This document shows positions 6,726 through 40,455 of a DNA stretch of 64,000 bases, in pieces. Below the pieces are notes generated by a model. It was not told the origin of the DNA. It did no database searches and was given only the letters and a program-made list of their open reading frames with translations. Origin of the DNA: Limnohabitans sp. Rim8 (GTDB taxonomy: Bacteria; Pseudomonadota; Gammaproteobacteria; Burkholderiales; Burkholderiaceae_C); NCBI GenBank assembly GCA_945901045.1, contig CAMDKK010000005.1, forward strand, positions 45,978-109,977, given 5' to 3'. The translations under genes were made by a program, and so were the position numbers. Numbering within the stretch: position 1 is the stretch's first letter; every line of letters starts with the position of its first letter.

Positions 6726-7469
6726 TTAGCGCTTGACCACAGCTTTGTAGCTGAAACTGTCACCCCGAAAATACATTTCCGAATAGACCATCGACTGCCC
6801 AGACACGTCGACCGGTGTGAAGTCAATGCGCAGCAGGGGCGAACCGCGCTGGACATCCAGCAATTTGGCTAGCGCTGCGCTGGCCGGTATCGCGCGGGCT
6901 TCAATGCGGTTACTTTTAAGACGGTGACCCAACCGAGTCTCCAGCAGCACCACCACGTCGTTGGTGTTGATATCCTCTTGGATAAGTGCCTTTATCAGCG
7001 CTGGCTCACCATAGGACAGCACGAACGCGAAGGGCTTACCGTTCACCAGCCGCAAGCAGCGCAATGCGATAAGAGGATGGCCAAGAGACACCTCGAGGGC
7101 ATGGGCTGCTGCTGCGGGTGCGCCAACCTGCTTCATCGAAAGAATACGTCCGACGGCCCGCTTGCCTTGTTTGCGCATATGCTCGTAAAAGCCAATCAGC
7201 GGGCCCATGTCGGGTAATTCGTTCGGCCGGGTGACATAGCTGCCTTTACCGTTGACCTTTTCAATCAGGCCTTCAGCATGCAGACTGGCCAACGCCTGCC
7301 TCACAGTGATGCGCGAGACGCCAAAGTTCTCTTCAAGCTCCGACTCCGAAGGTAACTTGTGCCCAGGCGCCATCCGGTTCGCGAGAATGTCGCTGCGCAA
7401 GCTGTCGGCCATACGAACGAACAAGGTTCGGTTGTCATCAGTCGGGTTGCGTGAAAGTTCTTTGGCCAT
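6726..7469 (-). CDS. GntR family regulator, HutC/UTRA type
   Basis: The 247-residue protein has an N-terminal GntR winged helix (GHKLPSESELEENFGVSRITVRQALASLHAEGLIEK split around residues 37-72) and a C-terminal UTRA domain ending in QRGSPLLRIDFTPVDVSGQSMVYSEMYFRGD. UTRA domains bind small ligands such as sugars or acids. I chose ATG 7469; the upstream in-frame TTG at 7514 lacks support and would run into the operator region. The gene is divergent from a Bug receptor. Two similar palindromes between them (7528-7576) are its likely operators, so it probably controls the 7.6-14.2 kb operon and itself. Confidence 0.9.
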   Translation of the reverse strand: MAKELSRNPTDDNRTLFVRMADSLRSDILANRMAPGHKLPSESELEENFGVSRITVRQALASLHAEGLIEKVNGKGSYVTRPNELPDMGPLIGFYEHMRKQGKRAVGRILSMKQVGAPAAAAHALEVSLGHPLIALRCLRLVNGKPFAFVLSYGEPALIKALIQEDINTNDVVVLLETRLGHRLKSNRIEARAIPASAALAKLLDVQRGSPLLRIDFTPVDVSGQSMVYSEMYFRGDSFSYKAVVKR

Positions 7470-26467: not shown

Positions 26468-28045
26468 TCAGTGAGGTTCAGCATCCGTTTCTGAAACAGG
26501 CTGCAATGCGGGGTAAGGTCCGTCGCTTAAAAGATAACGCTTCAATACAGCTTGCGCCACCTGGCGGCGGCTGACCTTGCCTTGTGCATTGCGCGGCAAA
26601 CTGGGCAAGGCCACATACAAACGGGGTTGCTTGTATTTGGACAAGCCGGCCACGCGATCGCGTGCCTCGGCTTCCCATCCCGCCTGAACATCCTGCGCCA
26701 CAGTGATGATCACTTCACCCCAGTAATCCGATGGCAATGATGTAACGCACAGTGCGCTACACAAGACCCCACCGCTTTGCGCTTCCTCGATTTCATCCGG
26801 ATTGATCCGGTACCCGCCGGTCTTGATCACATCGGCCACACGGCCGGTCAGTACCAGGCGCCCGACTTCATCCATGAATCCCAAATCACCCGTGGCGTGC
26901 CATCCTTGTGCATCATGGCCCACGATACCCTCAGGGTAAATCAAACCGGCACATTGCTGTGGCGCCCGCAAATAAACTTCGCCTTGTGCCTGACTTTGTA
27001 GATCTTCATTCGCGTCCTCTTGCGCCTGCGAAGCAGCTTGAATGCGCAACTCCACGCCCGGAACGGGCCAGCCGACGCAGGCACCCGCAGGTCGGGTGGC
27101 TTGCGCAAAATACGCATCTGTTTGCGCTGGCGTCATCACCGTGATGGGGTTGATGCACTCGGACTTGCCATAGGTGATACGCACGACCGGACCAAACATA
27201 CCGCAACCGGCTTTGTACAAAGGTGCAGTCATCGCCTGCGTTCCGGTAAAGATGCAACGAATGCCCTCGAAACGACGACCGGCAAATGAATGTGTGATTT
27301 TCGCCAAGACAGTGGGCGGTGCAAAAATGGCTTGGAGTTCACCGCCTGCCAACAAGGGCTCTATTTGCGCTGTGTGAACACCATCGTGCAGCAACACATG
27401 ACCGCCTAAATCAGACCACGCAAAAGTCAGCAGCGAGGCCCCATGCACAAACGGTGTCATCAGCAACAACTTGGCTCCGGGGTCGGGCACAAAGGGCATG
27501 GTCGCTTTGAGCATTTGTTCTCCGATCCACCGCGCCGCATGGGTGTAGATCACGCCTTTGGGCTTACCAGTGGTGCCTGATGTGAAGAGGACTCGCCCTG
27601 TATCCGATGCACAAACAGCGGGCAAAGCCTCCGGCTGCGCAGCGGCATCGGTCGGCAAGAGGTCTTCTATCAGCAAAGGCTGCAAGCCCCAAGCACGCAC
27701 CTGATCCATGCGTTCAGCGCGCGTGATGACCCACTTGACTTGTGCCAAGCCACAGCACCACTGAAACTCTTGCGGGGAGAGTGACCAGGACAAAGGCGTT
27801 TCGGCCGCCCCCATCAAACGGATCCCATAAGCACAGAGCACTGCATCCAGTGAATTGGGCAGCCACACGCCCACCGATTGGCCCGATGAAATCCCCTGCT
27901 TCAAAAGACTGTGTGCCAATTGATGCGACTGGCGACTCAGTTGCGCAAAGCTCAGCGTCTGCCCCTGACCATCGGTCACGGCCACGGCATGGCCAAGTCG
28001 GGCCGCTAAAACCAAGAGTTGATCGGACCAAGCAATAGACGCCAT
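26468..28045 (-). CDS. AMP-forming acyl-CoA synthetase (ligase)
   Basis: The 525-residue protein has the adenylation P-loop VLFTSGTTGKPKGVIYTH near 166, RITYGKSECINP (A5 region), WHATGDLGFMDEVGRLVLTGR (A7), VIKTGGYRINPDEIE (A8) and the C-terminal catalytic Lys region PRNAQGKVSRRQ (A10). It activates a carboxylate with ATP and CoA. ATG 28045 is preferred to the in-frame TTG at 28060. It is the last strongly coding gene of the minus-strand CoA operon that begins at 33669. The 510 bp at 25958-26467 downstream hold no gene I can support. Confidence 0.92.
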   Translation of the reverse strand: MASIAWSDQLLVLAARLGHAVAVTDGQGQTLSFAQLSRQSHQLAHSLLKQGISSGQSVGVWLPNSLDAVLCAYGIRLMGAAETPLSWSLSPQEFQWCCGLAQVKWVITRAERMDQVRAWGLQPLLIEDLLPTDAAAQPEALPAVCASDTGRVLFTSGTTGKPKGVIYTHAARWIGEQMLKATMPFVPDPGAKLLLMTPFVHGASLLTFAWSDLGGHVLLHDGVHTAQIEPLLAGGELQAIFAPPTVLAKITHSFAGRRFEGIRCIFTGTQAMTAPLYKAGCGMFGPVVRITYGKSECINPITVMTPAQTDAYFAQATRPAGACVGWPVPGVELRIQAASQAQEDANEDLQSQAQGEVYLRAPQQCAGLIYPEGIVGHDAQGWHATGDLGFMDEVGRLVLTGRVADVIKTGGYRINPDEIEEAQSGGVLCSALCVTSLPSDYWGEVIITVAQDVQAGWEAEARDRVAGLSKYKQPRLYVALPSLPRNAQGKVSRRQVAQAVLKRYLLSDGPYPALQPVSETDAEPH

Positions 28046-28142
28046 CGGTTTCAATGCCAATTCATTCTCAATCTAGCTGACTTTTGCAAAGCCGCATTCA
28101 ATTGCGCATTCATTTCCGCATTCATTTTGGTGATGATAGGTT

Positions 28143-29486
28143 TCATTCAAAACGCACATGCGGTTGCGCCGTTAAGCTTGACAGCTTCGAAAACAAAGCG
28201 GCACCGTCCAAGTTCGCAGTATGGACGCAGTCAAGAAACTTGGCCTGCAAATCAGCGTCGCGCAAGGGCAGCATGGCGTTGCCTCGTGCAAAGCGAATGT
28301 CGCCAGAGTCCAGCATGGCGCCACTGTGCAATTGAATTTGCACACGGTCATGCATTGAAAACACGGGCTCGATCGCGCACTGTGTGTCCACGGTACTTAT
28401 TTTCACTTTGGCCATGGCATCCTTGACCGCATGCTCTTGCACAAAAACATCGCTCAACTCAGCCAAACCGACTTTGCCACGGACCAAGGAAGCGGCCACA
28501 GCAAACTCCAAGCTGAACTTGGCTTCCAATCCGGTTTGTGGTTGGTGGTTACGCAGCATGGAGGCCTGCGCTACACCGATGTGCGTATGCACTTGAGCGA
28601 CGTCCTGCAAACCAACGCCATGACTGGCGCACAAATCCAAAACACCATCAATCACCCGGTGCGTGGCATAGCAGGTGGGGTATTTTTTGATTGACAAGCC
28701 TGATTCAAGAATCCGAAAACGGCGGCCCAAATCGCCCACGGCCGATGTGCGGTCCACCGCGCCATGCGGGGATAAGGCGGACAAAAAACCTGCGGCATGC
28801 TCAAGTGCGTCAGGCGCAGCCGTGAGTCCTTTTTGTACCCAACGCACGGCCTCAATGGCACACGACGCGGCACGGCCCGCATGCAAGGGCTTGGTCATGG
28901 TGCCGAAATTGGCCACCAGACCACTGGCCATGCTGGCGGCCAAAGCGATCACATGCTGGCATTGCGCTGCACTCAGTCCATACAAATGCGCCACAGCTGC
29001 ACTGGTGCCAACAGTCCCCAACACAGCAGTCGGGTGCCAGCCTTTGAGGTGGTAAGCGTCTTTTTCGCGGACAAACAATTCTGCCCACACTTCGTAGCCG
29101 ACGAGGTAGGCCCTGAGAACCTGATCGCCAGTGGCATTGACGTGCTGACCTGCGGCCAGCACCGCTGGGACCAAAACTGTACTGGGGTGCCCGCCCAAAG
29201 CCACATCGTCAAAATCCAGCGCATGGCCAGCGGTGGCATTGATCAAAGCCGCATCACTGACACTGGCCATGGACTGTCCCATCAACAGATGGGCTTCTTG
29301 AACGGTGGATTGTTTATCAGACACAAAGGACTTTGCCATCTGAACCACAGGCTCATCGCGACCGGCGAGCATGGTACCGATGGTGTCAATGAAACCTGAT
29401 TGAACAATTTCCACCACCCGGTCAGGCAAGGGCGCGAAGTTCGGCGCACTGGCAAATCGGGCCAAATCAGCTGTTAAGCCTGTCAT
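28143..29486 (-). CDS. MmgE/PrpD family protein (2-methylcitrate dehydratase/isomerase-like)
   Basis: The 447-residue protein has the typical GFIDTIGTMLAGRDEPVV near 30, ATAGHALDFDDVALGGHPS near 84 and YPTCYATHRVIDGVLDL near 280. The family includes 2-methylcitrate dehydratase PrpD, cis-aconitate decarboxylase and iminodisuccinate epimerase, so it acts on tri- or dicarboxylic acids. No prpBC genes are near, so a methylcitrate role is unlikely. Embedded among CoA-ester genes, it may hydrate, dehydrate or isomerise the free acid. It starts 18 bp after the acyl-CoA dehydrogenase. Confidence 0.9.
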   Translation of the reverse strand: MTGLTADLARFASAPNFAPLPDRVVEIVQSGFIDTIGTMLAGRDEPVVQMAKSFVSDKQSTVQEAHLLMGQSMASVSDAALINATAGHALDFDDVALGGHPSTVLVPAVLAAGQHVNATGDQVLRAYLVGYEVWAELFVREKDAYHLKGWHPTAVLGTVGTSAAVAHLYGLSAAQCQHVIALAASMASGLVANFGTMTKPLHAGRAASCAIEAVRWVQKGLTAAPDALEHAAGFLSALSPHGAVDRTSAVGDLGRRFRILESGLSIKKYPTCYATHRVIDGVLDLCASHGVGLQDVAQVHTHIGVAQASMLRNHQPQTGLEAKFSLEFAVAASLVRGKVGLAELSDVFVQEHAVKDAMAKVKISTVDTQCAIEPVFSMHDRVQIQLHSGAMLDSGDIRFARGNAMLPLRDADLQAKFLDCVHTANLDGAALFSKLSSLTAQPHVRFE

Positions 29487-29504: not shown

Positions 29505-30695
29505 TCAGAAAGAACGGGGTAAACCCAACACATGTTCGGCCACATAAGACAGCACCAGGTTGGTGGAAATCGGTGCGATTTGCATCAAACGGGTTTCACG
29601 CCATTTGCGCTCCACATCGTATTCGCGGGCATAGCCAAAACCACCATGCGTCTGCAAACAGGCTTCGGCCGCATGCCATGACGCTTCAGAGGCCAGCAGC
29701 TTGGCCATATTGACTTCAGGCGCACAGGCTTGCCCGGCGGCAAACAAAGCGCTGGCTTTGCGCAAGAGCAAATCGGCGGCTTCGGTCTCTGCATGGGCAC
29801 GTGCAATCGGAAACGCAATCGCTTGGTTCTGGCCAATCGGGCGGTCAAACACCACCCTCTCTTTGGCGTAGTTGACCGCAGTTTTGACAAACCAGCGGGC
29901 ATCGCCAATTGATTCAGACGAAACCAAAATGCGCTCGGCGTTCATCCCATCCAGGATGTACTTGAAGCCTTTGCCTTCTTCGCCAATCAGGTTTTCTGCA
30001 GGCACCTTCATGCCATCAAAAAACACTTCGGTGGCGTGGTGGTTGATCATGGCCTTGATGGGCTTGATCTCTAATCCATGGCCCAAGGCTTCACGGATAT
30101 CTACCAGAAAAACCGACAAGCCTTCGGTTTTTTTGCTCACTTGGTCCAAGGGTGTGGTGCGCGCCAACAACAGCATCAAGTCCGAATGCAAGGCGCGAGA
30201 TGTCCACACTTTCTGACCATGCACGACATAGTGATCGCCATTTTTGACGGCCCGGGTTTTGAGTTTGGTGGTGTCTGTGCCGGAGGTAGGTTCTGTCACG
30301 CCAAAGGCCTGCAAGCGCAGCTCTCCGCTGGCAATGCGCGGCAGGTAGTGGGCCTTTTGAGCAAGAGAGCCATGCCGCAGCAAAGTGCCCATGATGTACA
30401 TCTGCGCATGACAAGCACCGGCATTGCAGCCCGATGCGTGGATTTCCTCCAGAATCACGGACGCTGCCCGCAATGGCAGTCCCGCTCCGCCGTATTCTTC
30501 AGGAATCAAGGCCGCCAGATAACCCGCTTCAGTGAGTGTCTGCACAAACTCGGTTGGGTAGGCGATACGCTCTTCCAGATCACGCCAATAGGCGCCGGGA
30601 TAAACTGCGCAAATTTTGCGAATGCTTTCGCGAATTTCCGGGTAGTCCTGCCCCAAGGCAATATGGACTTCGGCTGCGGGAGAAGGTTCGGACAT
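29505..30695 (-). CDS. Acyl-CoA dehydrogenase
   Basis: A full-length 396-residue enzyme: EEYGGAGLPLRAASVILEEI, AFGVTEPTSGTDTTKLKTRA, HYVVHGQKVWTSRALHSDLM, GEEGKGFKYILDGMNAERIL, QTHGGFGYAREYDVERKWRE and an IAPISTNLVLSYVAEHVLG end. In many relatives the final motif is PISTNLIL, as here, in short/branched-chain or glutaryl-type dehydrogenases. It would oxidise the acyl-CoA before hydration by the crotonase at 31700 and cleavage by the lyase at 30717. Gene spacings of 18-26 bp on either side indicate one operon. Confidence 0.93.
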   Translation of the reverse strand: MSEPSPAAEVHIALGQDYPEIRESIRKICAVYPGAYWRDLEERIAYPTEFVQTLTEAGYLAALIPEEYGGAGLPLRAASVILEEIHASGCNAGACHAQMYIMGTLLRHGSLAQKAHYLPRIASGELRLQAFGVTEPTSGTDTTKLKTRAVKNGDHYVVHGQKVWTSRALHSDLMLLLARTTPLDQVSKKTEGLSVFLVDIREALGHGLEIKPIKAMINHHATEVFFDGMKVPAENLIGEEGKGFKYILDGMNAERILVSSESIGDARWFVKTAVNYAKERVVFDRPIGQNQAIAFPIARAHAETEAADLLLRKASALFAAGQACAPEVNMAKLLASEASWHAAEACLQTHGGFGYAREYDVERKWRETRLMQIAPISTNLVLSYVAEHVLGLPRSF

Positions 30696-30716: not shown

Positions 30717-31673
30717 TTACACCAACTCGGATACGAGTTGCCGGCGACCTGGCTTGTCAAAGTGTTTGGGGAAACCGGCGCGGGCCAAGGCGCCATGCAT
30801 TTCAATATCGGGCAACGAGGCGCGCACCATCTCGCGAATAGCCAGAAGTTGTGCCAGATCGACGCCGGTTTTCAAGCCCATGGATTCAAGCATGAAACAC
30901 AAATCGTCCATGACGATGTTGCCCGTGGCACCGGGTGCAAAAGGACAACCCCCCATGCCTGCCAACGAGGCATCAAATCGGCGCACGCCACAATCCAGTG
31001 CGGCCGTGACGTTGGCCAGTCCAATGCCGCGTGTGTCGTGAAAATGGGCGGCCACAGGAATGGAGCCCACCGCATCGATGACGGCTTTGAACACGGTGCG
31101 CACTTGTTGCGGATCGGCGTAACCGACGGTATCAGGCACCACGATTTCTTGCGCCCCAGCCTCTGCAAAAGCCACTGCGTACTTGACGACATCGGCAACC
31201 GGCACACGCCCCTCATAGGAGCACCCAAAGGCGGTAGCCAAGCCGCCGACAAGGACGGGGCGAGTCTGAGCGGGTTGCGAGCGCACCAGTTCAACAATAC
31301 GGACAAAATCCGCCAACGACTCTTCACGCTCTCGGCGCACATTTTTGAGGTTGTGCGTCTTGCTGACTGACATCACAAAGTTCAGTTTGTGGGCGCCCAA
31401 CTCGATCCCTCTTTCAGCACCACGGTAATTGGGAATCAAAGCAGACACCGTCAAGCCTTTGATCTTCAAAGCCTCTACGGTCACGGTTTCGGCGTCCACA
31501 AATTGGGGCACAACCCGGGCAGGTACATACGACGTGACTTCTATTTCAGACACCCCCGCAGCAGCCTCTGCCTGGATCCAAGCCAACTTGGTCTCGGTTG
31601 GCATGAAAACCGGGTGGATTTGAAGACCATCACGCAGCCCCACTTCGCGCACATAAACATCGACTTTTTGCAT
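30717..31673 (-). CDS. Hydroxymethylglutaryl-CoA lyase family protein
   Basis: The 318-residue TIM barrel starts VYVREVGLRDGLQIHP, with the Arg-Asp pair that binds substrate and metal. It contains EIEVTSYVP, VPDTVGYADPQQV, the metal ligands VAAHFHDTRGIGLAN (HxH) and the active-site loop AGMGGCPFAPGATGNI with the catalytic Cys. HMG-CoA lyases cleave 3-hydroxy-3-methylglutaryl-CoA; homologues in catabolic clusters act on related 3-hydroxy-3-alkyl dicarboxylyl-CoA esters. It fits as the carbon-carbon cleavage step after oxidation and hydration. Confidence 0.92.
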   Translation of the reverse strand: MQKVDVYVREVGLRDGLQIHPVFMPTETKLAWIQAEAAAGVSEIEVTSYVPARVVPQFVDAETVTVEALKIKGLTVSALIPNYRGAERGIELGAHKLNFVMSVSKTHNLKNVRREREESLADFVRIVELVRSQPAQTRPVLVGGLATAFGCSYEGRVPVADVVKYAVAFAEAGAQEIVVPDTVGYADPQQVRTVFKAVIDAVGSIPVAAHFHDTRGIGLANVTAALDCGVRRFDASLAGMGGCPFAPGATGNIVMDDLCFMLESMGLKTGVDLAQLLAIREMVRASLPDIEMHGALARAGFPKHFDKPGRRQLVSELV

Positions 31674-31699: not shown

Positions 31700-32497
31700 T
31701 CAGCGCCCTTTGAACACAGCTTTGCGTTTTTCGTTGAAAGCCAGTACACCTTCGTACCGATCTTCAGTTTCGACCAAATGGTTGTAGGCTTCCACCTCAA
31801 AACGGAATGCGGTCCGCAATTCCATTTGGTGACCATAGCGCACTGATTTTTTGATTTGCCGCACTGACAGCGGTGCGTTGCTGGCAATAGTTTGGGCTGT
31901 TTTGATGGCCATTGGAACAACTTCCGAGGGTTCGGCAATGGCGTTGAAAATCCCCCAGTCCAAGGCCTTTTGGGCATTGATGGGCTGCCCCGTCATAAGC
32001 ATTTCTTTGGCTTTGCGCTCGCCAATGGCACGCGGCAAATTTTGTGTGCCACCGGCACCCGGCATGATGCCCAGCGTGACCTCGGTCAAGGCAAATCTTG
32101 CCGTGTTGGAGGCATAGGCAAAATCGCAAGACAACACGGTTTCGAATCCGCCTGCATACGCGTGCCCATTGACCGCAGCAATCACAGGAATCGGCAGGTC
32201 CGTCAGCGCCCAGTACATCCGCTCAAATAACTGGTGTTGCTTGATCCATTGGGCCTTGGTCATCCCGTTGCGCTCTTTCAGATCGCCACCTGCACAGAAA
32301 ATCTTATCGCCGGCCCCTTTCAAAACGATGCAGCGCACGTCCCCTGCATCTTCGGTCAAACGGGTCCACAAATCCAAAAAATCAGCCCCCATTTGGGTGT
32401 TCAAGGCATTGCCGACATGGGGACGATTGAGGGTCACCAACAACACATGGGCGTCCACCATGTCGCTCAGCAAGGTTTCGTACGCAGGCAAGTTCAT
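31700..32497 (-). CDS. Enoyl-CoA hydratase (crotonase family), catalytic Glu pair present
   Basis: The 265-residue protein has KGAGDKIFCAGGDLKE (oxyanion hole), NGHAYAGGFETVLSCDFAYA and FALTEVTLGIMPGAGGTQNL. Both catalytic glutamates are in place (GFE and LTE), unlike the crotonases at 12224 and 36687. Hydration of the enoyl-CoA formed by the dehydrogenase at 29505 is the likely role. Its start codon overlaps the stop of the upstream CoA-transferase by four bases (32494-32497). Confidence 0.93.
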   Translation of the reverse strand: MNLPAYETLLSDMVDAHVLLVTLNRPHVGNALNTQMGADFLDLWTRLTEDAGDVRCIVLKGAGDKIFCAGGDLKERNGMTKAQWIKQHQLFERMYWALTDLPIPVIAAVNGHAYAGGFETVLSCDFAYASNTARFALTEVTLGIMPGAGGTQNLPRAIGERKAKEMLMTGQPINAQKALDWGIFNAIAEPSEVVPMAIKTAQTIASNAPLSVRQIKKSVRYGHQMELRTAFRFEVEAYNHLVETEDRYEGVLAFNEKRKAVFKGR

Positions 32498-33669
32498 ACC
32501 TTGGTTTCTCCGGTTTTGAAAATCATGTGCTGGTGCTCGCCCAGCTTAGGGGGCGCGCTGCGGGACGCAGGCCTTTGCCCATCCAGTCGCAAAGGCAATC
32601 CAAAAAATCTCATGTCAGTGCCTGGTACATCCTGGATCAGTTTCAAGGCTTGTGTTTGAGGGTGGGCCACCATCTGCCCGATGTTCTGTACCGCCGAACA
32701 AGGAATGCCTGCGTCCTCGAAGCAAGTCACCCAGGTCTGCGTATCACGCGTCAACAAGATCGCATCAAGCAATCCGTACAAGGCCAACTGATGCTGTACG
32801 CGGGTCGGGTTGTCGACAAAACGTGGGTCGTCAAGCCACTCTGGATGATTGACCGCATGCGCCAATCGCTTGAACAGGCCATCACTGCCCGCCGCAACGA
32901 CAATTTCTCCATCGCAGGTGGCGTAGGCCTTGTAAGGGGCAATACCGGCTGCACCAGAGCCTTGTTTTTGAGGCAATTGTCCGCTGGCCAGGTACTGAGA
33001 CGCGATCAAGGAGACCCAAGAGGTGGCCGTTTCAAACAAGGACACATCCACCACACGACCGAGACCCGTTTTCTGGCGCTCGTACAAGGCCGTCAAAATA
33101 CCAATCATGGCCCACAGGCCTGTGCCCATGTCCACAATGGAGGCACCCACACGCACAGCGGGTCGGCCTTCTTCGCCCGTAGTGCTCATGATGCCGCCAA
33201 AGGCCTGCATCAAGGGGTCATAACCGGGCCGGTCTTTGAGCGGTCCCTCACTGCCAAAAGCACCCAGATTGCAGTAAATCAAACCCCGTTTTGCAGCGCA
33301 CAACGTGGGGCCGTCAATGCCGATTTTTTCGACCTGCCCGGGTCTGAGGTTTTGCAAGACCACATCGGCCTCGGCCTGGATGTAAGACTTGACAGCTTCA
33401 ACATGTGCCGGGTCGTGAAAGTCGCACACCACCGAAGCTTTGTTCCGGTTCAAGGCCTGAAACAAAGCAGAAGCGCCTTCCCAAAATGGGGGCCCCCATT
33501 TGCGTGCGTCGTCACCGTCTTTCTTTTCAATTTTGACGACTTTGGCGCCCAGCTCACTCAAAATATGGGCAGCAAATGGCGCTGCCACACTGTGCCCGAG
33601 TTCGACCACGACCAAGCCTGCGAAGGGTTGAACAGGCGTTGCAGGGTTCGTCGGAAGTTGCGTGGACAT
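32494..33669 (-). CDS. Family III CoA-transferase (CaiB/BaiF)
   Basis: The 391-residue protein has GLVVVELGHSVAAPFAAHIL near its start, NRNKASVVCDF, GYDPLMQAFGGIMSTTGEEG and the active-site region VVDVSLFETATSWVSL. It is the first gene of the minus-strand operon 33669 to about 24.9 kb. ATG 33669 is preferred over the in-frame TTG at 33684. Directly upstream is a clear promoter/operator shared in design with that at 35.4 kb. Having both this transferase and an ATP-dependent ligase suggests two CoA-activation steps or two substrates. Confidence 0.93.
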   Translation of the reverse strand: MSTQLPTNPATPVQPFAGLVVVELGHSVAAPFAAHILSELGAKVVKIEKKDGDDARKWGPPFWEGASALFQALNRNKASVVCDFHDPAHVEAVKSYIQAEADVVLQNLRPGQVEKIGIDGPTLCAAKRGLIYCNLGAFGSEGPLKDRPGYDPLMQAFGGIMSTTGEEGRPAVRVGASIVDMGTGLWAMIGILTALYERQKTGLGRVVDVSLFETATSWVSLIASQYLASGQLPQKQGSGAAGIAPYKAYATCDGEIVVAAGSDGLFKRLAHAVNHPEWLDDPRFVDNPTRVQHQLALYGLLDAILLTRDTQTWVTCFEDAGIPCSAVQNIGQMVAHPQTQALKLIQDVPGTDMRFFGLPLRLDGQRPASRSAPPKLGEHQHMIFKTGETKV

Positions 33670-33695: not shown

Positions 33696-33733
33696 TGTAC
33701 GGACATTATTATCGGACACGTCCACCCTGTCAA
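33696..33733 (-). promoter_or_regulatory. Promoter and GntR-type operator for the minus-strand CoA operon
   Basis: On the minus strand TTGACA (33733-33728) is separated by 17 bp from AATAAT (33710-33705). The operator TGTCCGTACA, read on that strand, begins at the last base of the -10 box and covers 33705-33696. A further GGACGTGTCC lies between the two boxes. The same operator design occurs at 35404-35440. The divergent GntR gene starts at 33756. Confidence 0.6.
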
Positions 33734-33755
33734 CCAAAGCCAGTAAACTGATGAC

Positions 33756-34523
33756 ATGTCGAAAATTTCAGACTCCAAACCCCGCTATTTGATTTTGCGT
33801 GAGCGCTTGGAAAACGACATTGCCAAAGGGATTTACCCCGTGGGCAGCCTCTTTCCCACTGAAGAGCAATTGGGTCAGACCTACCAGGTCAGCCGGCATA
33901 CCGTGCGCGAAGCCACCCGCACCCTGGCCGAACGGGGTCTGATTGCCAAGCGAGCAGGGTTCGGCACCGTGGTCTGCGCCAAGCAAGCGACTGCGCCTTA
34001 TGTCGCAGCCTTGGGCACTGTGCAAGAGTTGTTCAAATACACCGAGGCCACTCGGTTGGAAGTGTTAGAAAAACACAACGTGACGGCCGACATGGCTTTG
34101 GCCCAAACCCTGGACTGTGAACGAGATTCGCAATGGATTATGTTGAACTCGCAACGCCTCACAATGGACAAGGCCACTGCGATTTCATTCACGCAAATTT
34201 ACCTGCGACCTGAATTTGCGTCGATTGCGGATCAGTTGCATGGACGGCATAAAAGCATTTTCAAAATGCTTGAAGAGGATCACCAACAACCCATTGTGCA
34301 AGTCAAACAGGACATAGAAGCCACGCTGATGCCTTTGAAAGCCGCCAAGCTGTTGGATGTAGCCAAAAACAGCCCCGCCCTGCACATGCGCCGGTCTTAT
34401 CTGGATGCGAGGGGCCGGCTGCTGGCGGTGTCGTCCAATCTGTATGCCGCCAGCCGATTCAGGCTGACCACCTCGTGGGCCTTGCAAGCCACAAGCGGCA
34501 GCAAAAAATCAAGCCAGAATTGA
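33756..34523 (+). CDS. GntR family regulator, HutC/UTRA type
   Basis: The 255-residue protein has the winged helix GSLFPTEEQLGQTYQVSRHT followed by VREATRTLAERGLIAKRAGFGT, and a UTRA ligand domain (about 85-245) with SFTQIYLRPEF and LHMRRSYLDARGRLLAVSSN. It is divergent from the CoA operon at 33669. The operator TGT(A/C)CGGACA occurs in both this intergenic region and the one at 35.4 kb, so it probably represses three transcripts and perhaps itself. Its 3' end overlaps the convergent SDR gene by 15 bp. Confidence 0.92.
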   Translation: MSKISDSKPRYLILRERLENDIAKGIYPVGSLFPTEEQLGQTYQVSRHTVREATRTLAERGLIAKRAGFGTVVCAKQATAPYVAALGTVQELFKYTEATRLEVLEKHNVTADMALAQTLDCERDSQWIMLNSQRLTMDKATAISFTQIYLRPEFASIADQLHGRHKSIFKMLEEDHQQPIVQVKQDIEATLMPLKAAKLLDVAKNSPALHMRRSYLDARGRLLAVSSNLYAASRFRLTTSWALQATSGSKKSSQN

Positions 34524-35297
34524 TGCTTTGAGCATGTCGCGCTTGCCGACAATATTGACCACAGGTTCGCTGCCAAACTCTGGGTGGTGCAAATACGCCA
34601 GCACCTGACGCGCCGCCTCACTTGGAGACGTGAGCGCACCCGTTGCTTGCAATTGGATGTAGCGCTCTCTGTCGGGAAAAAGCACCGAGTTGCCATTGCG
34701 CAATTCACGTTGCATATCGGTATCGATCACGCCCGGCGCCAAGGACACTATGCGTGCGCCTGCAGAGCGCCTTGCCTCGTCCAAGGCCACGCAACGGCTC
34801 AACTGATCCATACCCGCTTTGGCCGCACCATACAAAGCCGCGCCCGCCATGGCACGCTGGCTCATGCCGGACGAAATATTCAAGACATTGACCCCACTCT
34901 GCCACGCGCTGGTCGCATGCAAAAATGAGGCCATCAACTGCAAAGGAGCAATGAGGTCCACGGTGATGGCTTGTGTGATGGTGTCAGGCGCAATGGTCGG
35001 CAAGGGCGCCATCGCACCCAGTGTGCCGGCATTGTTGATCAAGGTGACTGAAGCCACCTGCGCAGGCTCCATGGCCGTGAGCCAAGCGGCCAAACTCTGC
35101 GCCACAGGCGCGGGATCGGCCAGGTTGGCAGACCATTGCTCAAGTGCCACGCCCGCACGCTCAGCCTCATCGGCCAAAGGCTGCGAAGTTGTTCTGGAGA
35201 TGCAGAGCAAACGGTTCGAAGCTTTCAACAATTGACGGGCCATTTCCAGCCCCATACCTTTGGAAGCACCTGTAAGGATATAAATATGTTGAACCAT
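34509..35297 (-). CDS. SDR family oxidoreductase
   Basis: The 262-residue classical SDR has the cofactor motif TGASKGMGLE near 9, LINNAGTLGAM (NNAG) near 87 and the catalytic Ser plus YGAAK in SSGMSQRAMAGAALYGAAKA near 142-160. The end of the first strand-helix-strand unit reads LLCISRT, where the Arg suggests NADP(H). It may act on a hydroxyacyl or ketoacyl intermediate. It is transcribed away from the CoA-transferase at 35488, and the operator between them could control both. Confidence 0.92.
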   Translation of the reverse strand: MVQHIYILTGASKGMGLEMARQLLKASNRLLCISRTTSQPLADEAERAGVALEQWSANLADPAPVAQSLAAWLTAMEPAQVASVTLINNAGTLGAMAPLPTIAPDTITQAITVDLIAPLQLMASFLHATSAWQSGVNVLNISSGMSQRAMAGAALYGAAKAGMDQLSRCVALDEARRSAGARIVSLAPGVIDTDMQRELRNGNSVLFPDRERYIQLQATGALTSPSEAARQVLAYLHHPEFGSEPVVNIVGKRDMLKASILA

Positions 35298-35403
35298 GGC
35301 GTGTGTATCTCCTGGCTAATTTAGCCCTTGTGCAAAACAAAGTGCAAACCAATGCGCAAGCCTTTTGCTTGTGCAGACTTACCCTGATGTGAGCCAAAGT
35401 CGA

Positions 35404-35440
35404 TTGACTTTCAAGCCAATCCCATTATATTGTCCGGACA
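35404..35440 (+). promoter_or_regulatory. Promoter and GntR-type operator for the plus-strand CoA operon
   Basis: TTGACT (35404-35409), 18 bp, then TATTGT (35428-35433), with the perfect palindrome tgtccggaca at 35431-35440 starting inside the -10 box. It matches tgtacggaca at 33696-33705 in nine of ten bases, with almost the same position relative to the -10 box. Regulation by the GntR protein at 33756 is inferred. Confidence 0.6.
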
Positions 35441-35487: not shown

Positions 35488-36684
35488 ATGAACCCCAGAA
35501 GCTCCGACTCCTCCGCCTTGAAACGCTTCAAAGTATTGGACCTGACCCGTGCCCGATCTGGCCCGACCTGCGTGCGCACTTTGGCCGATTTTGGTGCAGA
35601 GGTTATTCGCATTGAATCGCCCGCAGGCTTGGACCCCAACGAAGGCGCTATGGGCGATCGAGAAACCTTTGACATGCTGAATTTGCATCGGAATAAACGT
35701 TCGATCACCCTGAATCTCAAAGAGCCCGAAGCCCGAGAGATTTTTTACAAACTGGCCGCACAAGCCGATGTGGTGGTCGAGAATTACCGACCGGATGTGA
35801 AGTTCCGTTTAGGCATCGACTACGACACCTTGGCCGCCATCAATCCACGTATTGTCTTGGCCAGCATTTCAGGTTTTGGCGAAGATGGACCCTACCGCAA
35901 ACGACCCGGCTTTGACCAGATCGCGCAAGGCATGGGGGGGATGATGTCTGTCACCGGACTGCCCGGTCAGGGGCCGGTTCGTGCAGGCATTGCGATTTCT
36001 GATTCGGGTACTGGCATGTATGCCGCTATAGGTATTTTGATTGCGCTGCTGGAACGCGAAACCTCTGGCCGCGGACAATGGGTGCAGGCGAACCTTTTGC
36101 AATCCATGATCAGTCTGTGCGACTTTCAAGCGGCCCGGTATTTGATCGATGGCGACATTCCAGCGGCAACCGGCAACGACCACCCTTTCTCCACGCCCAT
36201 GGGCACCTTCCAGTCCAGCAATGGCCATTTCAACATTGGCGCTTCGGGCACCAAACAATACAGGTCGTTGTGTGAAGTGCTGAACCGACTGGATTTGCGT
36301 GACGAACCGCGTTATCAACAAAATCCGGGTCGACTCCAAGACCGTGCATTTTTGAACGCCGAGCTGAACCAAGGCTTTGCCACCAACACCACCGAACACT
36401 GGGTGCAACTCCTGAACGATGCGGGAGTGCCCTGCGGTCCCATCTACAACATGCAACAAGTCTTTGATGACCCCCAGGTGCAACACCTGCATGCAGCAGT
36501 GGATTTGCAACACCCGCGCCGAGGCGACATTCGCGTGGTGGCACAGCCCTTTAAACTGTCCCGCACGCCAAGTTCTGTCAAATTTACACAGCGGGATTTG
36601 GGTGAAGACAACGACGATATTCTGGGTGAATTGGGTTACTCCTCTGACACCATTGCGCAATTCAAATTAAAGAAAGTGATCTGA
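35488..36684 (+). CDS. Family III CoA-transferase (CaiB/BaiF)
   Basis: The 398-residue protein has FKVLDLTRARSGPTCVRTLA, NRPDVKF-like VENYRPDVKFRLGIDY, ISGFGEDGPYRKRPGFDQIA and GMGGMMSVTG. The segment that usually reads VDVSLxD or VDVSLFE is WVQANLLQSMISLCDFQAAR, so the nearest acidic residue is the Asp of CDFQAAR; this fits a distinct subfamily. ATG 35488 follows AAGGAC and lies downstream of the operator; the longer frame from 35365 would span the promoter. It is first in the 35.5-40.5 kb operon. Confidence 0.92.
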   Translation: MNPRSSDSSALKRFKVLDLTRARSGPTCVRTLADFGAEVIRIESPAGLDPNEGAMGDRETFDMLNLHRNKRSITLNLKEPEAREIFYKLAAQADVVVENYRPDVKFRLGIDYDTLAAINPRIVLASISGFGEDGPYRKRPGFDQIAQGMGGMMSVTGLPGQGPVRAGIAISDSGTGMYAAIGILIALLERETSGRGQWVQANLLQSMISLCDFQAARYLIDGDIPAATGNDHPFSTPMGTFQSSNGHFNIGASGTKQYRSLCEVLNRLDLRDEPRYQQNPGRLQDRAFLNAELNQGFATNTTEHWVQLLNDAGVPCGPIYNMQQVFDDPQVQHLHAAVDLQHPRRGDIRVVAQPFKLSRTPSSVKFTQRDLGEDNDDILGELGYSSDTIAQFKLKKVI

Positions 36685-36686
36685 TC

Positions 36687-37487
36687 ATGAGCGAAGCACC
36701 TCAAACCCCAGGCCAACTGGACCACCACGTTGAAGGTCACGTCGGCTATGTGACCTTCAACAATCCCGCTAAATTCAATGCGGTGAACTATGACATGTGG
36801 TGTGCACTGCCCATCGCCATGCGGGCCCTGGCGGACAACCCGCAAGTGCGTTTGATCGTTTTGCAAGGTGCCGGCGAAAAGGCCTTTGTGTCTGGTGCCG
36901 ATATTTCGCAATTCAACACGCACCGCAATGGCGATGCCAGCACCCATTACAACGAAGCCACACAAGCAGGCTACGCGGCCGTGCTCGATTGCACCAAACC
37001 CACTTTGGCCAAAATCCGTGGCATTTGCATGGGAGGCGGCTTGGGACTGGCCATCAATTGCGATATGCGCATGGCCTCGGCGGACAGCAAGTTCCGCATG
37101 CCAGCAGGTCGATTGGGCCTAGGCTACGCTTTTGAAGGCATCAAACGCTTCACCGAAGTGGTGGGCACCGCCAACACCGCTGACTTGTTTTTCAGTGCAC
37201 GCATTTTTGGTGCAGATGAAGCCCTGCGCATCGGCTTGCTCAAACAAATGGCACCCGCCGAGGCATTTGAAGAGATCGTGAACGCCTATGTGCAAATGGT
37301 CTGCGAAAACGCACCTTTGACCTTGGCGGCCGCCAAACGAACCTTGCTTGAAATTCGCAAGAACCCGCACGAGCAGGATCTGGCTGGCGTTCAAGCCATG
37401 GTCGATGCCTGCTTCACCAGTGAAGATTACAAAGAAGGCCGCAAAGCCTTCGCTGAAAAACGTACCCCTCAATTCCAAGGTAAGTAG
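36687..37487 (+). CDS. Crotonase family protein lacking the hydratase Glu pair
   Basis: The 266-residue protein has VTFNNPAKFNAVNYDMWCAL, LQGAGEKAFVSGADISQF and IRGICMGGGLGLAINCDMRM. The positions of the two hydratase glutamates read GGLGLA and RMPAGRLGLG, so neither acid is present. Simple syn-hydration is therefore unlikely; isomerase, thioesterase or decarboxylase-type chemistry is possible. It begins two bases after the CoA-transferase stop. This differs from the competent-looking hydratase at 31700, so the two are not simple duplicates. Confidence 0.9.
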   Translation: MSEAPQTPGQLDHHVEGHVGYVTFNNPAKFNAVNYDMWCALPIAMRALADNPQVRLIVLQGAGEKAFVSGADISQFNTHRNGDASTHYNEATQAGYAAVLDCTKPTLAKIRGICMGGGLGLAINCDMRMASADSKFRMPAGRLGLGYAFEGIKRFTEVVGTANTADLFFSARIFGADEALRIGLLKQMAPAEAFEEIVNAYVQMVCENAPLTLAAAKRTLLEIRKNPHEQDLAGVQAMVDACFTSEDYKEGRKAFAEKRTPQFQGK

Positions 37488-37497
37488 GAGACTTCCA

Positions 37498-38460
37498 ATG
37501 CAATCACGTTCTTGGTGGTGGTTGGCTGCGGGACTTTTGACGGTCTGTGCTGCAATGGCGCAGCCTTTTCCGACCAAACCCATCAAATTTGTCGTTGGCT
37601 ACCCGCCCGGCGGTTCGGGTGACTTTGTGACCCGAACCCTTGGGGAAGCCATTGCCACCGAGCTGGGGCAAACGGCTGTGATCGACAATCGGCCGGGAGC
37701 CGCAGGCAACCTGGCCAGTGAGTTGGTCCATAAATCAGCGCCTGATGGTTACACCTTGTTGGTGGGCAGTAACCCCTACATCAACAAAGCACTCTATAAA
37801 AAACTGCCCTACGACATTGAGAAGGATTTTCAGCCCATCACCTTGCTCGGTAATGGGCCGATGGTCATTGCCGTCAACAGCAGCCTGCCCGTCAACAACA
37901 TCAAGGAGTTGATTGCCTATGCCAAAAAGAACCCCGACAAATTGAATTTTGGCTCCAGTGGCAATGGCTCTGCACCTCACTTGGCGGGCATTTTGTTCAA
38001 CAGTGTGACGGAGACAGACATGGTGCACATCCCCTTCAAAGGCGGCGCGCCTGCGGTGCAGTCCTTGATTGCCGGAGACACACAGGTGATTTTCGGAACA
38101 TCGCCGGTGGTGCTGCCGCAAGTGCGTGGCGGGCGCATTCGGGCCTTGGCCATCACGACACAAGAGCGTTCTGCGGCAATTCCCAACATCATGGGCATGA
38201 AAGAAGCAGGCTTGCCCGACTACAACATCAGTTTTTCATTCGGTCTTTACGCCCCCATGAAAACGCCACCCGAAGATGTGAAAAAGATTTTCGATGCTGC
38301 CGTGAAAGTACTTAAACGCCAGGACATCCGAGAAAAACTGGCCACACAGGGCATGGACCCTTTACCGAACAATTCGCCCAACGAATTTCGACTGCAAAAC
38401 CAACGTGATGCACCCCTGTGGAGTAAGCTGATTGAAGCTTCTGGCGCCAAGGTGGACTGA
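37498..38460 (+). CDS. Bug/TctC family periplasmic solute receptor
   Basis: The 320-residue protein has a short signal (WWWLAAGLLTVCAAMAQ) and Bug motifs IKFVVGYPPGGSGDFVTRTL, TAVIDNRPGAAGNLASELV, IPFKGGAPAVQSLIAGDTQV and a divergent IPNIMGMKEAGLPDY. ATG 37498 follows AGGAG and is preferred to the long upstream extension, which would overlap the crotonase gene. It stands between enzymes of the operon and probably captures the pathway's substrate. No TctA/TctB partner is encoded here. Confidence 0.92.
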   Translation: MQSRSWWWLAAGLLTVCAAMAQPFPTKPIKFVVGYPPGGSGDFVTRTLGEAIATELGQTAVIDNRPGAAGNLASELVHKSAPDGYTLLVGSNPYINKALYKKLPYDIEKDFQPITLLGNGPMVIAVNSSLPVNNIKELIAYAKKNPDKLNFGSSGNGSAPHLAGILFNSVTETDMVHIPFKGGAPAVQSLIAGDTQVIFGTSPVVLPQVRGGRIRALAITTQERSAAIPNIMGMKEAGLPDYNISFSFGLYAPMKTPPEDVKKIFDAAVKVLKRQDIREKLATQGMDPLPNNSPNEFRLQNQRDAPLWSKLIEASGAKVD

Positions 38461-38461
38461 C

Positions 38462-39439
38462 ATGCAAGCCTACACCATCAAAACAGTGCAAGACCAATCG
38501 GTGGTCGAACTTGTTGAACGCGACGAGCCCGCACTGGGGCCGACTCAGATGCGCATTCAGATGCACGCGGCCAGTTTGAACCGGGGTGAATTCATCGTCG
38601 GACATGGTTTGCACGGCAAGTCCGAAGTCCCCCAGCCTGTGGGCTTGGAGGGTGCCGGCAGGGTGCTTGAAATCGGCGCCGAAGTCAAACACTTTGTTGT
38701 AGGCCAGCGCGTCATGGGCCGATGCCCTGGCGCTTTCGCAGTCCGCACCGTCATGGATGAGCGCGAGGCCATGCCGATTCCTGAGATCCTCGATTGGAAC
38801 GAGGCCGCAGCCGTGCCTTTGACTTACCTCACTGCCTACGACGCCGTGCATGAGCAAGGCCAATTGAAGCAGGGTGAATGGCTTCTCATCAATGGTGTGA
38901 CCTCGGGCGTGGGGGTGGCGGCCTTGCAAATGGCCAAGGCCATCGGTGCCCATGTGATTGGCACCTCCGGGTCGACCGACAAACTGGCCAAACTCCAAGG
39001 CCAAGGCTTGAGCTTGTCACTGCACACACGGCAAGCTGACTTTCACGATGCCGTGATGCACGCCACCCAAGGCCAAGGTGTCCATCTGGCGGTCAATACC
39101 GTCGGCGGGTCGGTGTTTGCAGAAGATATCCGCTGTTTGGCATTTGAAGGTCGGCTGGCCATGGTGGGCTATGTGGATGGCGAGCTAAATACCCCCCTCG
39201 ACTTGCATGCCCTGCATGCCAAACGCTTGCGCTTGTTTGGTGTCTCCAACAAGTTGCGCAACGCTTCGCAAAAAGCCGCCTCCATTCCGGCCTTCATGAA
39301 AGACATTTGGCCTGCATTGAACCGCGGCGAAATCCGACCCTTCATTGATCAGGTCTTTCCTTTTTCACAATTAACCCAAGCCAAAGACAGCATGCAGGCT
39401 AACAACCATGTCGGCAAAGTTGTTTTGTCTATGCCGTGA
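38462..39439 (+). CDS. Zinc-independent MDR oxidoreductase (quinone reductase-like)
   Basis: The 325-residue medium-chain dehydrogenase/reductase has AASLNRGEFIVGHGLHG, GLEGAGRVLEIGAEVKHF, the cofactor motif LINGVTSGVGVAALQMAKAI and QVFPFSQLTQAKDSMQANNHVGKVV split at the C-terminus. It lacks the Cys/His zinc ligands, so it belongs with NADPH:quinone or enoyl reductases of the QOR type. ATG 38462 lies one base after the Bug stop. A role in reducing an enoyl or quinone intermediate is possible but not shown. Confidence 0.9.
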   Translation: MQAYTIKTVQDQSVVELVERDEPALGPTQMRIQMHAASLNRGEFIVGHGLHGKSEVPQPVGLEGAGRVLEIGAEVKHFVVGQRVMGRCPGAFAVRTVMDEREAMPIPEILDWNEAAAVPLTYLTAYDAVHEQGQLKQGEWLLINGVTSGVGVAALQMAKAIGAHVIGTSGSTDKLAKLQGQGLSLSLHTRQADFHDAVMHATQGQGVHLAVNTVGGSVFAEDIRCLAFEGRLAMVGYVDGELNTPLDLHALHAKRLRLFGVSNKLRNASQKAASIPAFMKDIWPALNRGEIRPFIDQVFPFSQLTQAKDSMQANNHVGKVVLSMP

Positions 39440-39468
39440 TAGTCAAGCCCTCACCTGAGTCGTGCACC

Positions 39469-40455
39469 ATGCCACACCGTCGATCCTGTATTCAATCTCT
39501 GGGTTGGGGCCTGACCGGCCTGTTTTTTTTCGGCCCCAATACAGGGGCTCAAACTGCAAGTCCCATCAAAATATTAGTGGGTTTCCCGCCCGGCGGGTCG
39601 GTGGACATCATTGCCCGCAGGCTGTCCCAAGACCTGCCTGTTCAAGGCCTTAAACCGCTGGTGGACAACAAACCCGGTGCGGGTGGTCGCATCGCACTCG
39701 AAGCACTGAAAAACAGCGCGGCCGATGGAAAGTCGTGGGCAGTCACGCCAGGCTCCCTGTTGGTGCTCTACCCCCATGTCTTCAAGGACATGGGCATGGA
39801 CGCTTTGAATGATTTTTTGCCTGTTGCTGCCGTGGGTTCTTCGGTCTATGCGCTTGCGGTAGGCCCTTTGGTGCCCTCATCGGTTAAAACCGTCTCCGAG
39901 TTCACGGCTTGGTGCAAAGCCAATCCGCAACAGGCCTCCTATGCTTCGTCGGGCAACGGTTCCAAATCCCATTTGGCAGGTGTGCAATTAGCCCGACATG
40001 CAGGTTTTCAATGGACACACATCGCCTACAAAGGTGGGGCGCCGGCCGTGGCCGATTTGATCGGTGGCCAAATTGCAGCCAACATCACCATTTTGTCGAA
40101 TGTCTTGCCGCACATTCAAAGTGGCAAACTCCGTGCTTTGGCCACCACCGGCGGCAAGCGTTCGGTTTACCTTCCGCAAGTGCCTACCTTCAAAGAGTCT
40201 GGGGTCCAAGACATAGAAGCTGTTGAGGTATTTGTGGTCCTTGTGCCTGGTAAAACTTCTGCGGCGATCATTTCCAAAATTGCCCAAGAGATCCAAGCTG
40301 CATTGGTCAGCACCGAATACAAAGAAGGCCTGAGTAAATCATTTCTTGAGCCCGCTGAGCTTGTGACGCCCGCGCTGCTGCAGCAGCAAATTCGCAGCGA
40401 ATTTGAGACCTGGCGAAAAATCATTGAAAGCACAGGATTCAAAGCCGACAGCTGA
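39469..40455 (+). CDS. Bug/TctC family periplasmic solute receptor
   Basis: The 328-residue receptor has a signal sequence with RRSCIQSLGWGLTGLFFFGP, then IKILVGFPPGGSVDIIARRL, PLVDNKPGAGGRIALEALKN, IAYKGGAPAVADLIGGQIAA and LPQVPTFKESGVQDI. ATG 39469 is chosen; a GTG at 39436 overlaps the upstream gene's end and would add 11 residues. It is the second Bug gene of this operon, which suggests either two substrates or receptors of different affinity. It is the last gene of the plus-strand GntR-linked operon. Confidence 0.9.
   Translation: MPHRRSCIQSLGWGLTGLFFFGPNTGAQTASPIKILVGFPPGGSVDIIARRLSQDLPVQGLKPLVDNKPGAGGRIALEALKNSAADGKSWAVTPGSLLVLYPHVFKDMGMDALNDFLPVAAVGSSVYALAVGPLVPSSVKTVSEFTAWCKANPQQASYASSGNGSKSHLAGVQLARHAGFQWTHIAYKGGAPAVADLIGGQIAANITILSNVLPHIQSGKLRALATTGGKRSVYLPQVPTFKESGVQDIEAVEVFVVLVPGKTSAAIISKIAQEIQAALVSTEYKEGLSKSFLEPAELVTPALLQQQIRSEFETWRKIIESTGFKADS

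Follow-up and report, generated by a model that had tools for sequence, protein, structure and literature searches.

The window analysed here is a 64-kb stretch of DNA from Limnohabitans sp. Rim8 (contig CAMDKK010000005.1, positions 45,978 to 109,977). It contains a gene for a regulator with GntR and UTRA domains, and on either side of it, on opposite strands, lie two operons of enzymes that act on coenzyme A (CoA) esters. Which genes does this regulator control, through which DNA site, and in response to which compound? According to the original prediction, two 10-mers that differ at one base, one in the promoter of each operon, are a shared operator that defines a GntR-controlled regulon. 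We find both sites conserved in related genomes, a promoter-operator sequence that co-occurs exactly with the regulator gene in the genus, and the same site in front of a third transcription unit. The regulator is very probably a ligand-responsive repressor that acts at three promoters through a near-palindrome overlapping the -10 box. Switches of this kind are well known; the regulon is larger than the window shows, and the pathway that it controls has no name.

Operator sites and promoters in the window

Both 10-mers are present, and both promoters are as originally described, with a -10 box that overlaps the operator by one base at site 1 and by three bases at site 2. The elements are as follows.

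33696-33705, minus strand: operator 1, TGTACGGACA on the forward strand, TGTCCGTACA read along the CaiB1 operon
33705-33733, minus strand: promoter of the minus operon, TTGACA-N17-AATAAT (-35 box 33733-33728, -10 box 33710-33705)
33756-34523, plus strand: GntR/UTRA (HutC-type) regulator, probable repressor (Pfam GntR PF00392, 4.6e-15; UTRA PF07702, 2.5e-20)
35379-35393, plus strand: conserved block TTACCCTGATGTGAG (also written TTACCCTNANGTGAG), 10 bases 5' of the -35 box of promoter 2
35404-35433, plus strand: promoter of the plus operon, TTGACT-N18-TATTGT (-35 box 35404-35409, -10 box 35428-35433)
35431-35440, plus strand: operator 2, TGTCCGGACA, in the divergent intergenic region between SDR and CaiB2

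Site 1 lies between the GntR gene and the divergent CaiB1 operon, about 50 bp upstream of the GntR start codon. The SDR gene, described earlier as convergent, does converge on the GntR gene; it also diverges from CaiB2, which places site 2 in a divergent intergenic region. The one-base difference between the two 10-mers reflects a slight asymmetry of the palindrome. In the conserved block near promoter 2, TTACCCT is found in all nine genomes compared below and the GTGAG part in eight (it varies in L039), and a second regulator could bind there.

In the window, the pattern TGTMCGGACA occurs at sites 1 and 2 only (three strand-matches). Shuffled sequences gave a mean of 0.19 strand-matches and a maximum of 2, and three or more were seen in none of 100 shuffles. 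When the motif was written with N and one mismatch was allowed, it was not enriched in the window (14 matches, 16 expected). Over-representation as an argument was dropped, since there was no enrichment in the window (one mismatch), in the genome, or in 399 genomes of the family. With motif counts at chance level, the signal lies in position and conservation and not in the raw count.

Conservation and co-occurrence with the regulator

A check proposed with the original prediction was to look for the 10-mer near the same genes in genomes with an orthologue of GntR. The scan of genome contigs yielded nine loci, eight of them with a close orthologue (74-91% identity); the ninth, L046, has a GntR fragment only (31% identity) and was left out of the comparison. 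The motif is present at both places in all eight orthologous loci, while the flanks have diverged; one of the eight, L045, is without the minus operon. The alignments, which include the window's genome, make the difference between core and flank visible. At site 1, 8 of 10 core columns are invariant, compared with 7 of 95 ungapped flank columns (nine genomes). The corresponding values are 9 of 10 and 13 of 110 for site 2 (nine genomes), and 10 of 10 and 14 of 110 for the third site described below (seven genomes).

The promoter boxes are conserved together with the operators. TTGACA is found 22 bp before operator 1 in eight of nine genomes, and TTGACW 20-21 bp before operator 2 in all nine. 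Of the 25 aligned sites (9 site 1, 9 site 2, 7 site 3, all oriented with transcription), 24 have a TTGACA or TTGACT box whose end is 20-22 bp ahead of the operator; site 1 of L045 is the exception. Along transcription, the consensus is (A/T)TGTCCGKACA(T/A). The core reads TGTCCGTACA in 20 sites, TGTCCGGACA in four and TGTACGGACA in one, so that T, G, T, C, G, A, C and A are invariant.

L045 separates the two operons. It keeps the plus operon, the GntR gene and both sites; no CaiB1 operon or SDR gene was found at its GntR locus, and no close HMGL in its genome (84% complete). The two operons are thus separable modules. Site 1 of L045 begins 45 bp before the GntR start codon, and its retention in the absence of the CaiB1 operon suggests that the site serves the GntR promoter too, which would amount to autoregulation. 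The seven other relatives (L038-L044) have an extra Bug receptor gene after MmgE in the minus operon; in the window, a Bug gene (Bug2) instead ends the plus operon.

The promoter-operator 15-mer TATTGTCCGKACAWW and the GntR protein were searched in 90 genomes of the genus. The 15-mer is present in nine of them, and these are the same nine that have a close GntR orthologue (74-100% identity, E <= 3.3e-121), namely the window's genome and the eight orthologue genomes; it is present in none of the other 81 (Fisher 1.4e-12, uncorrected for shared ancestry). Its 16 occurrences all fall at site 2 or site 3, and a reversed-pattern control gave no match. Ten further genomes of the genus have only weaker GntR relatives (30-42% identity), and no 15-mer.

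A third unit of the regulon

The extended 12-mer ATGTMCGKACAW was searched in the same nine genomes. It gave 34 strand-matches, compared with 5 for the reversed control. The matches represent 25 distinct sites, of which 22 are at promoters of the regulon, two are beside a paralogous GntR gene on contig C29, and one is elsewhere. In the window's genome, one of the sites lies at C5:35365, 10.6 kb before the window start, upstream of a unit of two genes, Bug3 and ACAD2. This site 3 is divergent from SDR2, which is followed by indolepyruvate-ferredoxin-oxidoreductase-like genes. It was found in seven of the nine genomes, each time with a TTGACA-N17/18-TATTGT promoter facing Bug3 (spacer of 17 bp in two, 18 bp in five). 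Its place varies: it is beside the end of the minus operon in five relatives, on another contig in G399, and 44 kb from site 1 in the window's genome. The claim of a shared-operator regulon thus holds for the operator at two promoters and for its tie to the GntR/UTRA gene, and was incomplete with respect to the third unit, which lies outside the window.

Some observations on these regions may be added. Indolepyruvate-ferredoxin-oxidoreductase-like genes (L074:10511-12999, L068:16267-19999, L078:9737-13440) adjoin SDR2 in two genomes and lie about 4.7 kb from the ligase gene in a third. In one relative, a CoA-transferase gene (L074:7493-8590, 59% identity to CaiB1) stands between Bug3 and ACAD2. 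The paralogous GntR/UTRA gene of the window's genome (G000) occupies C29:448-1188, and two TGTACGTACA sites are found at positions 2838 and 4563 of the region around it (L079). One precedes a gene for a thiamine diphosphate (ThDP) enzyme, divergent from an aldehyde-dehydrogenase-like gene; the other precedes Bug-like genes.

Exact TGTMCGKACA matches on contigs C25, C31 and C54 of the window's genome and two on C50 of G402 were not counted as regulon sites. The match on C31 and one of the C50 pair are inside long open frames, and that on C54 is over a start codon. Those on C25 and at C50:7209 each lie close to where a stop-to-stop frame begins and could be intergenic.

Regulatory model and alternative explanations

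In the model that we favour, a GntR dimer would bind the 10-bp near-palindrome TGTCCG(T/G)ACA over the -10 box of three promoters. The controlled units would be CaiB1-ECH1-HMGL-ACAD-MmgE-ligase, CaiB2-ECH2-Bug-QOR-Bug, and Bug3-ACAD2. Bound GntR would block RNA polymerase, and its presence at site 1 would allow autoregulation. The acid of the pathway, or its CoA ester, would bind to the UTRA domain and free the DNA. What can be read directly from the DNA is where the sites lie, how well they are conserved, and that within the genus they occur exactly together with the regulator gene; from this we infer binding, repression rather than activation, autoregulation, the effector and the substrate.

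Several findings weigh against this model. The bare 10-mer TGTNCGGACA is not enriched genome-wide (22 strand-matches; reversed control 21 forward, 19 reverse). Over the 399 family genomes, TTGTMCGKACAWW yields 77 strand-matches, spread over 52 of them, whereas the reversed control yields about 142. Two of the nine genomes, the incomplete drafts G405 and G406, gave no site 3. The nine carriers are one clade, so that the co-occurrence overstates independence. Six of seven more distant sister clusters (see below) are without the exact 10-mer and carry other CG-rich palindromes. Finally, the near-identical TGTACGTACA sites of the C29 paralogue make cross-talk or misassignment possible.

The last point leads to one alternative, that the C29 paralogue, alone or with the window GntR, recognises the same sites, and that the regulon is shared or mainly the paralogue's. 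The paralogue (30% identity) has the SRHTVRE helix of the window GntR unchanged, and the TGTACGTACA sites before its neighbour genes are one base from the site-1 form. However, the 15-mer tracks the close GntR orthologue in nine of nine genus genomes, and five of the 81 genomes without the close orthologue (G537, G446, G423, G419, G439) have a GntR relative, by identity only (30-32%), and no 15-mer. We therefore consider a role of the paralogue at these sites improbable. It is less probable still that the motif is the operator and GntR an activator or dual regulator. The block TTACCCTNANGTGAG on the upstream side of promoter 2 hints at additional regulation, but 24 of the 25 operators extend into the -10 region of a promoter with a TTGACA or TTGACT -35 box, a position at which a bound dimer would obstruct the polymerase. 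That the two 10-mers are a mere coincidence of palindromic promoter sequence would fit one-mismatch matches at chance level and the unenriched bare 10-mer. Conservation at both places in eight of eight loci, the third site, and the exact co-occurrence with the regulator leave this explanation hardly any probability. Repression by the window GntR thus remains the preferred explanation.

Genes of the locus and the controlled pathway

The family assignments of the original prediction were borne out by Pfam. The genes other than the regulator are listed below.

26468-28060, minus strand: AMP-forming acyl-CoA ligase, final gene of the minus operon (Pfam)
28143-29486, minus strand: MmgE/PrpD protein (Pfam; best solved match IDS-epimerase)
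29505-30695, minus strand: acyl-CoA dehydrogenase, ACAD (Pfam)
30717-31673, minus strand: HMGL, enzyme like 3-hydroxy-3-methylglutaryl (HMG)-CoA lyase (Pfam; RDG, HxHDT and GGCPxAPG stretches kept)
31700-32497, minus strand: ECH1, crotonase-family hydratase (Pfam)
32494-33669, minus strand: CaiB1, family III CoA-transferase (Pfam CoA_transf_3)
34509-35297, minus strand: SDR dehydrogenase (Pfam), convergent with GntR, 3' ends overlapping at 34509-34523
35488-36684, plus strand: CaiB2, family III CoA-transferase (Pfam)
36687-37487, plus strand: ECH2, crotonase family, PRK06127 subfamily (Pfam and subfamily model)
37498-38460, plus strand: Bug1, TctC-type solute receptor (Pfam)
38447-39439, plus strand: quinone-oxidoreductase-like protein, QOR (zinc-type dehydrogenase; PIG3-like, below the model's cut-off)
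39463-40455, plus strand: Bug2, TctC-type solute receptor (Pfam)

The genes of the first and third units are brought together in seven sister clusters, five in the genus (L112-L116) and two outside it (L093, L094), where Bug3, CaiB1, ECH1, HMGL, ACAD2 and MmgE stand in one gene run. The GntR gene is divergent from the run in six of the seven (37-42% identity) and follows it on the same strand in L094 (36%); SDR2 precedes GntR in the five clusters of the genus. As the two units are a single operon there, their genes probably serve one pathway, which would comprise CoA transfer, dehydrogenation, hydration, a cleavage of the HMG-lyase type and a step catalysed by the MmgE/PrpD protein. The exact 10-mer is kept in L094, as TGTCCGGACA before Bug3. 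Between Bug3 and the regulator side, GTCCGGACGTCCG is found in four of the seven (L093, L114-L116), and related forms, CATACGGACGTCCGAATG and TGTACGGTCGTCCGTATG, stand at that place in L112 and L113. Three genomes at the level of the order (HMGL 51-53% identity) have only parts of the neighbourhood in the fetched regions: CaiB2-like (31%) and MmgE-like (30%) genes with one TGTGCGCACA in L117, an ECH1-like gene (50%) on a 3.8-kb contig in L118, and two Bug genes in L119. TGTMCGKACA was not found in these three fetched regions.

Among described systems, the nearest literature match for the gene set is the work on itaconate and methylsuccinate. Compared by gene families, the clusters of Cupriavidus necator and Pseudomonas aeruginosa also combine CoA-transferase, acyl-CoA dehydrogenase and MmgE/PrpD genes with a hydratase and a lyase, and a Bug-type receptor gene is near the C. 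necator cluster (PMC12290011). The window set differs in its lyase, which is HMGL-like whereas the lyase there acts on (S)-citramalyl-CoA, and in having a crotonase-type hydratase, a GntR/UTRA regulator and three transcription units. The (S)-citramalyl-CoA lyase of the itaconate cluster is of the CitE type.

What could the substrate be? A dicarboxylate would be taken up with the help of the Bug receptors, attached to CoA by CaiB, dehydrogenated by ACAD, hydrated by ECH, and cleaved in the manner of HMG-CoA lyase with release of acetyl-CoA. The likeliest class would be dicarboxylates that are branched or 2-substituted, like those of the itaconate/methylsuccinate pathway. The original prediction favoured a 3-alkyl-branched dicarboxylic acid. 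The enzyme set is compatible with activation, dehydrogenation, hydration and HMG-type cleavage; for the MmgE/PrpD protein, a 2-substituted succinate is no less suitable than a 3-alkyl dicarboxylate. According to section 13 of PMC12290011, the known MmgE/PrpD substrates share a four-carbon dicarboxylate unit. In a search of plasmids with MmgE, all matches were below 60% identity, and the best among the matches listed was 45%.

The pathway could alternatively be a 3-methylglutarate, 3-methylglutaconate or HMG route, which can hold together with repression by GntR. CaiB1 would form the CoA ester, ACAD and ECH would convert it to HMG-CoA, and HMGL would cleave this to acetyl-CoA and acetoacetate. 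HMGL has six solved-structure matches, all named HMG-CoA lyases, and it retains the motifs. The solved relatives of CaiB1 include succinate--hydroxymethylglutarate CoA-transferase (ranks 3 and 4), and CaiB1 also matches a succinate--glutarate model, below its cut-off. However, it is hard to see what an MmgE/PrpD isomerase would do with 3-methylglutarate, which is achiral, and the known substrates have the four-carbon dicarboxylate unit in common (PMC12290011, as above). We regard the HMG route as possible but doubtful. A 2-substituted succinate appears slightly more likely than an acid of the 3-methylglutarate type, because the isomerase would have no obvious use on an achiral acid. The window's genome has three more HMGL-like genes (46, 36 and 33% identity), so that the window HMGL need not serve leucine breakdown.

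A candidate CG-centred operator class

GntR subfamilies are defined by the C-terminal domain (PMC4494728). By its GntR helix-turn-helix and UTRA domain, the window protein resembles the HutC subfamily (NagR/YvoA, DasR, PhnF, HutC); its best solved-structure matches include NagR/YvoA and DasR, and its 23 NCBIfam matches all fall below the cut-off of the respective model. In HutC operators, GT and AC are 4 nt apart (PMC4494728, section 11), as they are in 25 of 25 sites here, if the window GntR binds them. A divergent regulator gene with a single site in between is another shared feature (PMC4494728, sections 5, 11 and 15). The centre is different. The published HutC consensus, NyGTMTAKACNy, has a TA centre (PMC4494728, section 5), typical rather than defining, whereas the sites described here are CG-centred (GTMCGKAC) in 25 of 25 cases. 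Among the titles and abstracts listed, we found none on these 10-mers or 12-mers as a GntR operator, and one paper that deals with footprints in bacteria generally (PMC2248561); a CG-centred HutC motif may be listed in the motif spreadsheets of PMC4494728.

A CG centre is known from AraR of Bacillus subtilis, whose operator consensus is At(T/A)tGTaCGTAcaa(A/T)T (PMC4218819, legend of Figure 1), and whose DNA-binding domain has His at position 39 (PMC4494728, Table 1). The DNA-binding domain of AraR is also among the solved matches of the window GntR. AraR is unlike the window regulator in its effector domain and its response to arabinose; the C-terminus of the window protein is a UTRA domain. 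The effector domain of AraR is of the LacI type. GntR residue 39 correlates with the central operator bases (PMC4494728, section 11), and a rule that His39 goes with a CG centre was considered and rejected. A UTRA regulator with His39 in the same genome (L151, NRHTIRRA helix) has a TA-centred TTGTCTATACAA, and CG-centred sites are found with Phe39 and Tyr39 as well.

The 399 family genomes contain 33 other GntR matches, and loci were examined for 29 of them (27-40% identity). Within 250 bp upstream of these 29 relatives, sites of the form TGTN-XX-NACA have a CG centre in 11 cases, an AT centre in one, and TA or other centres in none; shuffling gave CG-centred sites in 0.1 cases on average and in at most two of the 29. 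In eight of the 51 other genomes with TTGTMCGKACAWW, a match lies within about 6 kb of a GntR gene. Exact TGTNCGNACA was found in nine of ten regions (those eight, G097 and G329), a count that is partly circular, as the eight were chosen for the motif. It occurs anywhere in one of 35 UTRA-gene loci (30 and 5 fetched; L145 and L150 are the same gene). As the counts of TTGTMCGKACAWW are below control, the wider operator class rests on position near regulator genes. CG-centred sites thus also precede other GntR/UTRA genes of the family, and the claim that the operator defines the regulon has to be narrowed, because the motif class alone is insufficient.

Two further observations concern UTRA regulators. 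Paired TGTTCGAACA-like sites, 24-27 bp apart, are found upstream of GntR/UTRA genes in L018, L021, L024, L025, L029, L032 and L036. The window contains a further UTRA regulator gene (6753-7169, minus strand; L154); roughly 100 bp upstream of it lies the TA-centred palindrome CTGTTATAACAG.

A broader proposal, which is conceivable but on the whole rather unlikely, is that a large clade of GntR/UTRA regulators in the family uses the CG-centred TGTNCGNACA class for many CoA-transferase/Bug gene sets. Its window member would control an undescribed pathway that starts with the isomerisation of a 2-substituted succinate by the MmgE/PrpD protein; activation, dehydrogenation and hydration would follow, and a cleavage of the HMG-lyase type would give acetyl-CoA and a 2-oxo acid. 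The 2-oxo acid would in some genomes be handed on to the neighbouring indolepyruvate-ferredoxin-oxidoreductase-like enzyme.

In the family, substrates have yet to be assigned for many CaiB, Bug and GntR genes, and a reliable operator links a regulator to its gene sets by sequence alone. The CG centre in UTRA-type regulators provides data for a recognition rule outside the published TA-centred HutC consensus. In the present case, the operator adds a third unit and unites genes that form one operon in relatives. It also gives a direct route to the substrate, via the question which acid releases GntR from TGTCCGKACA.

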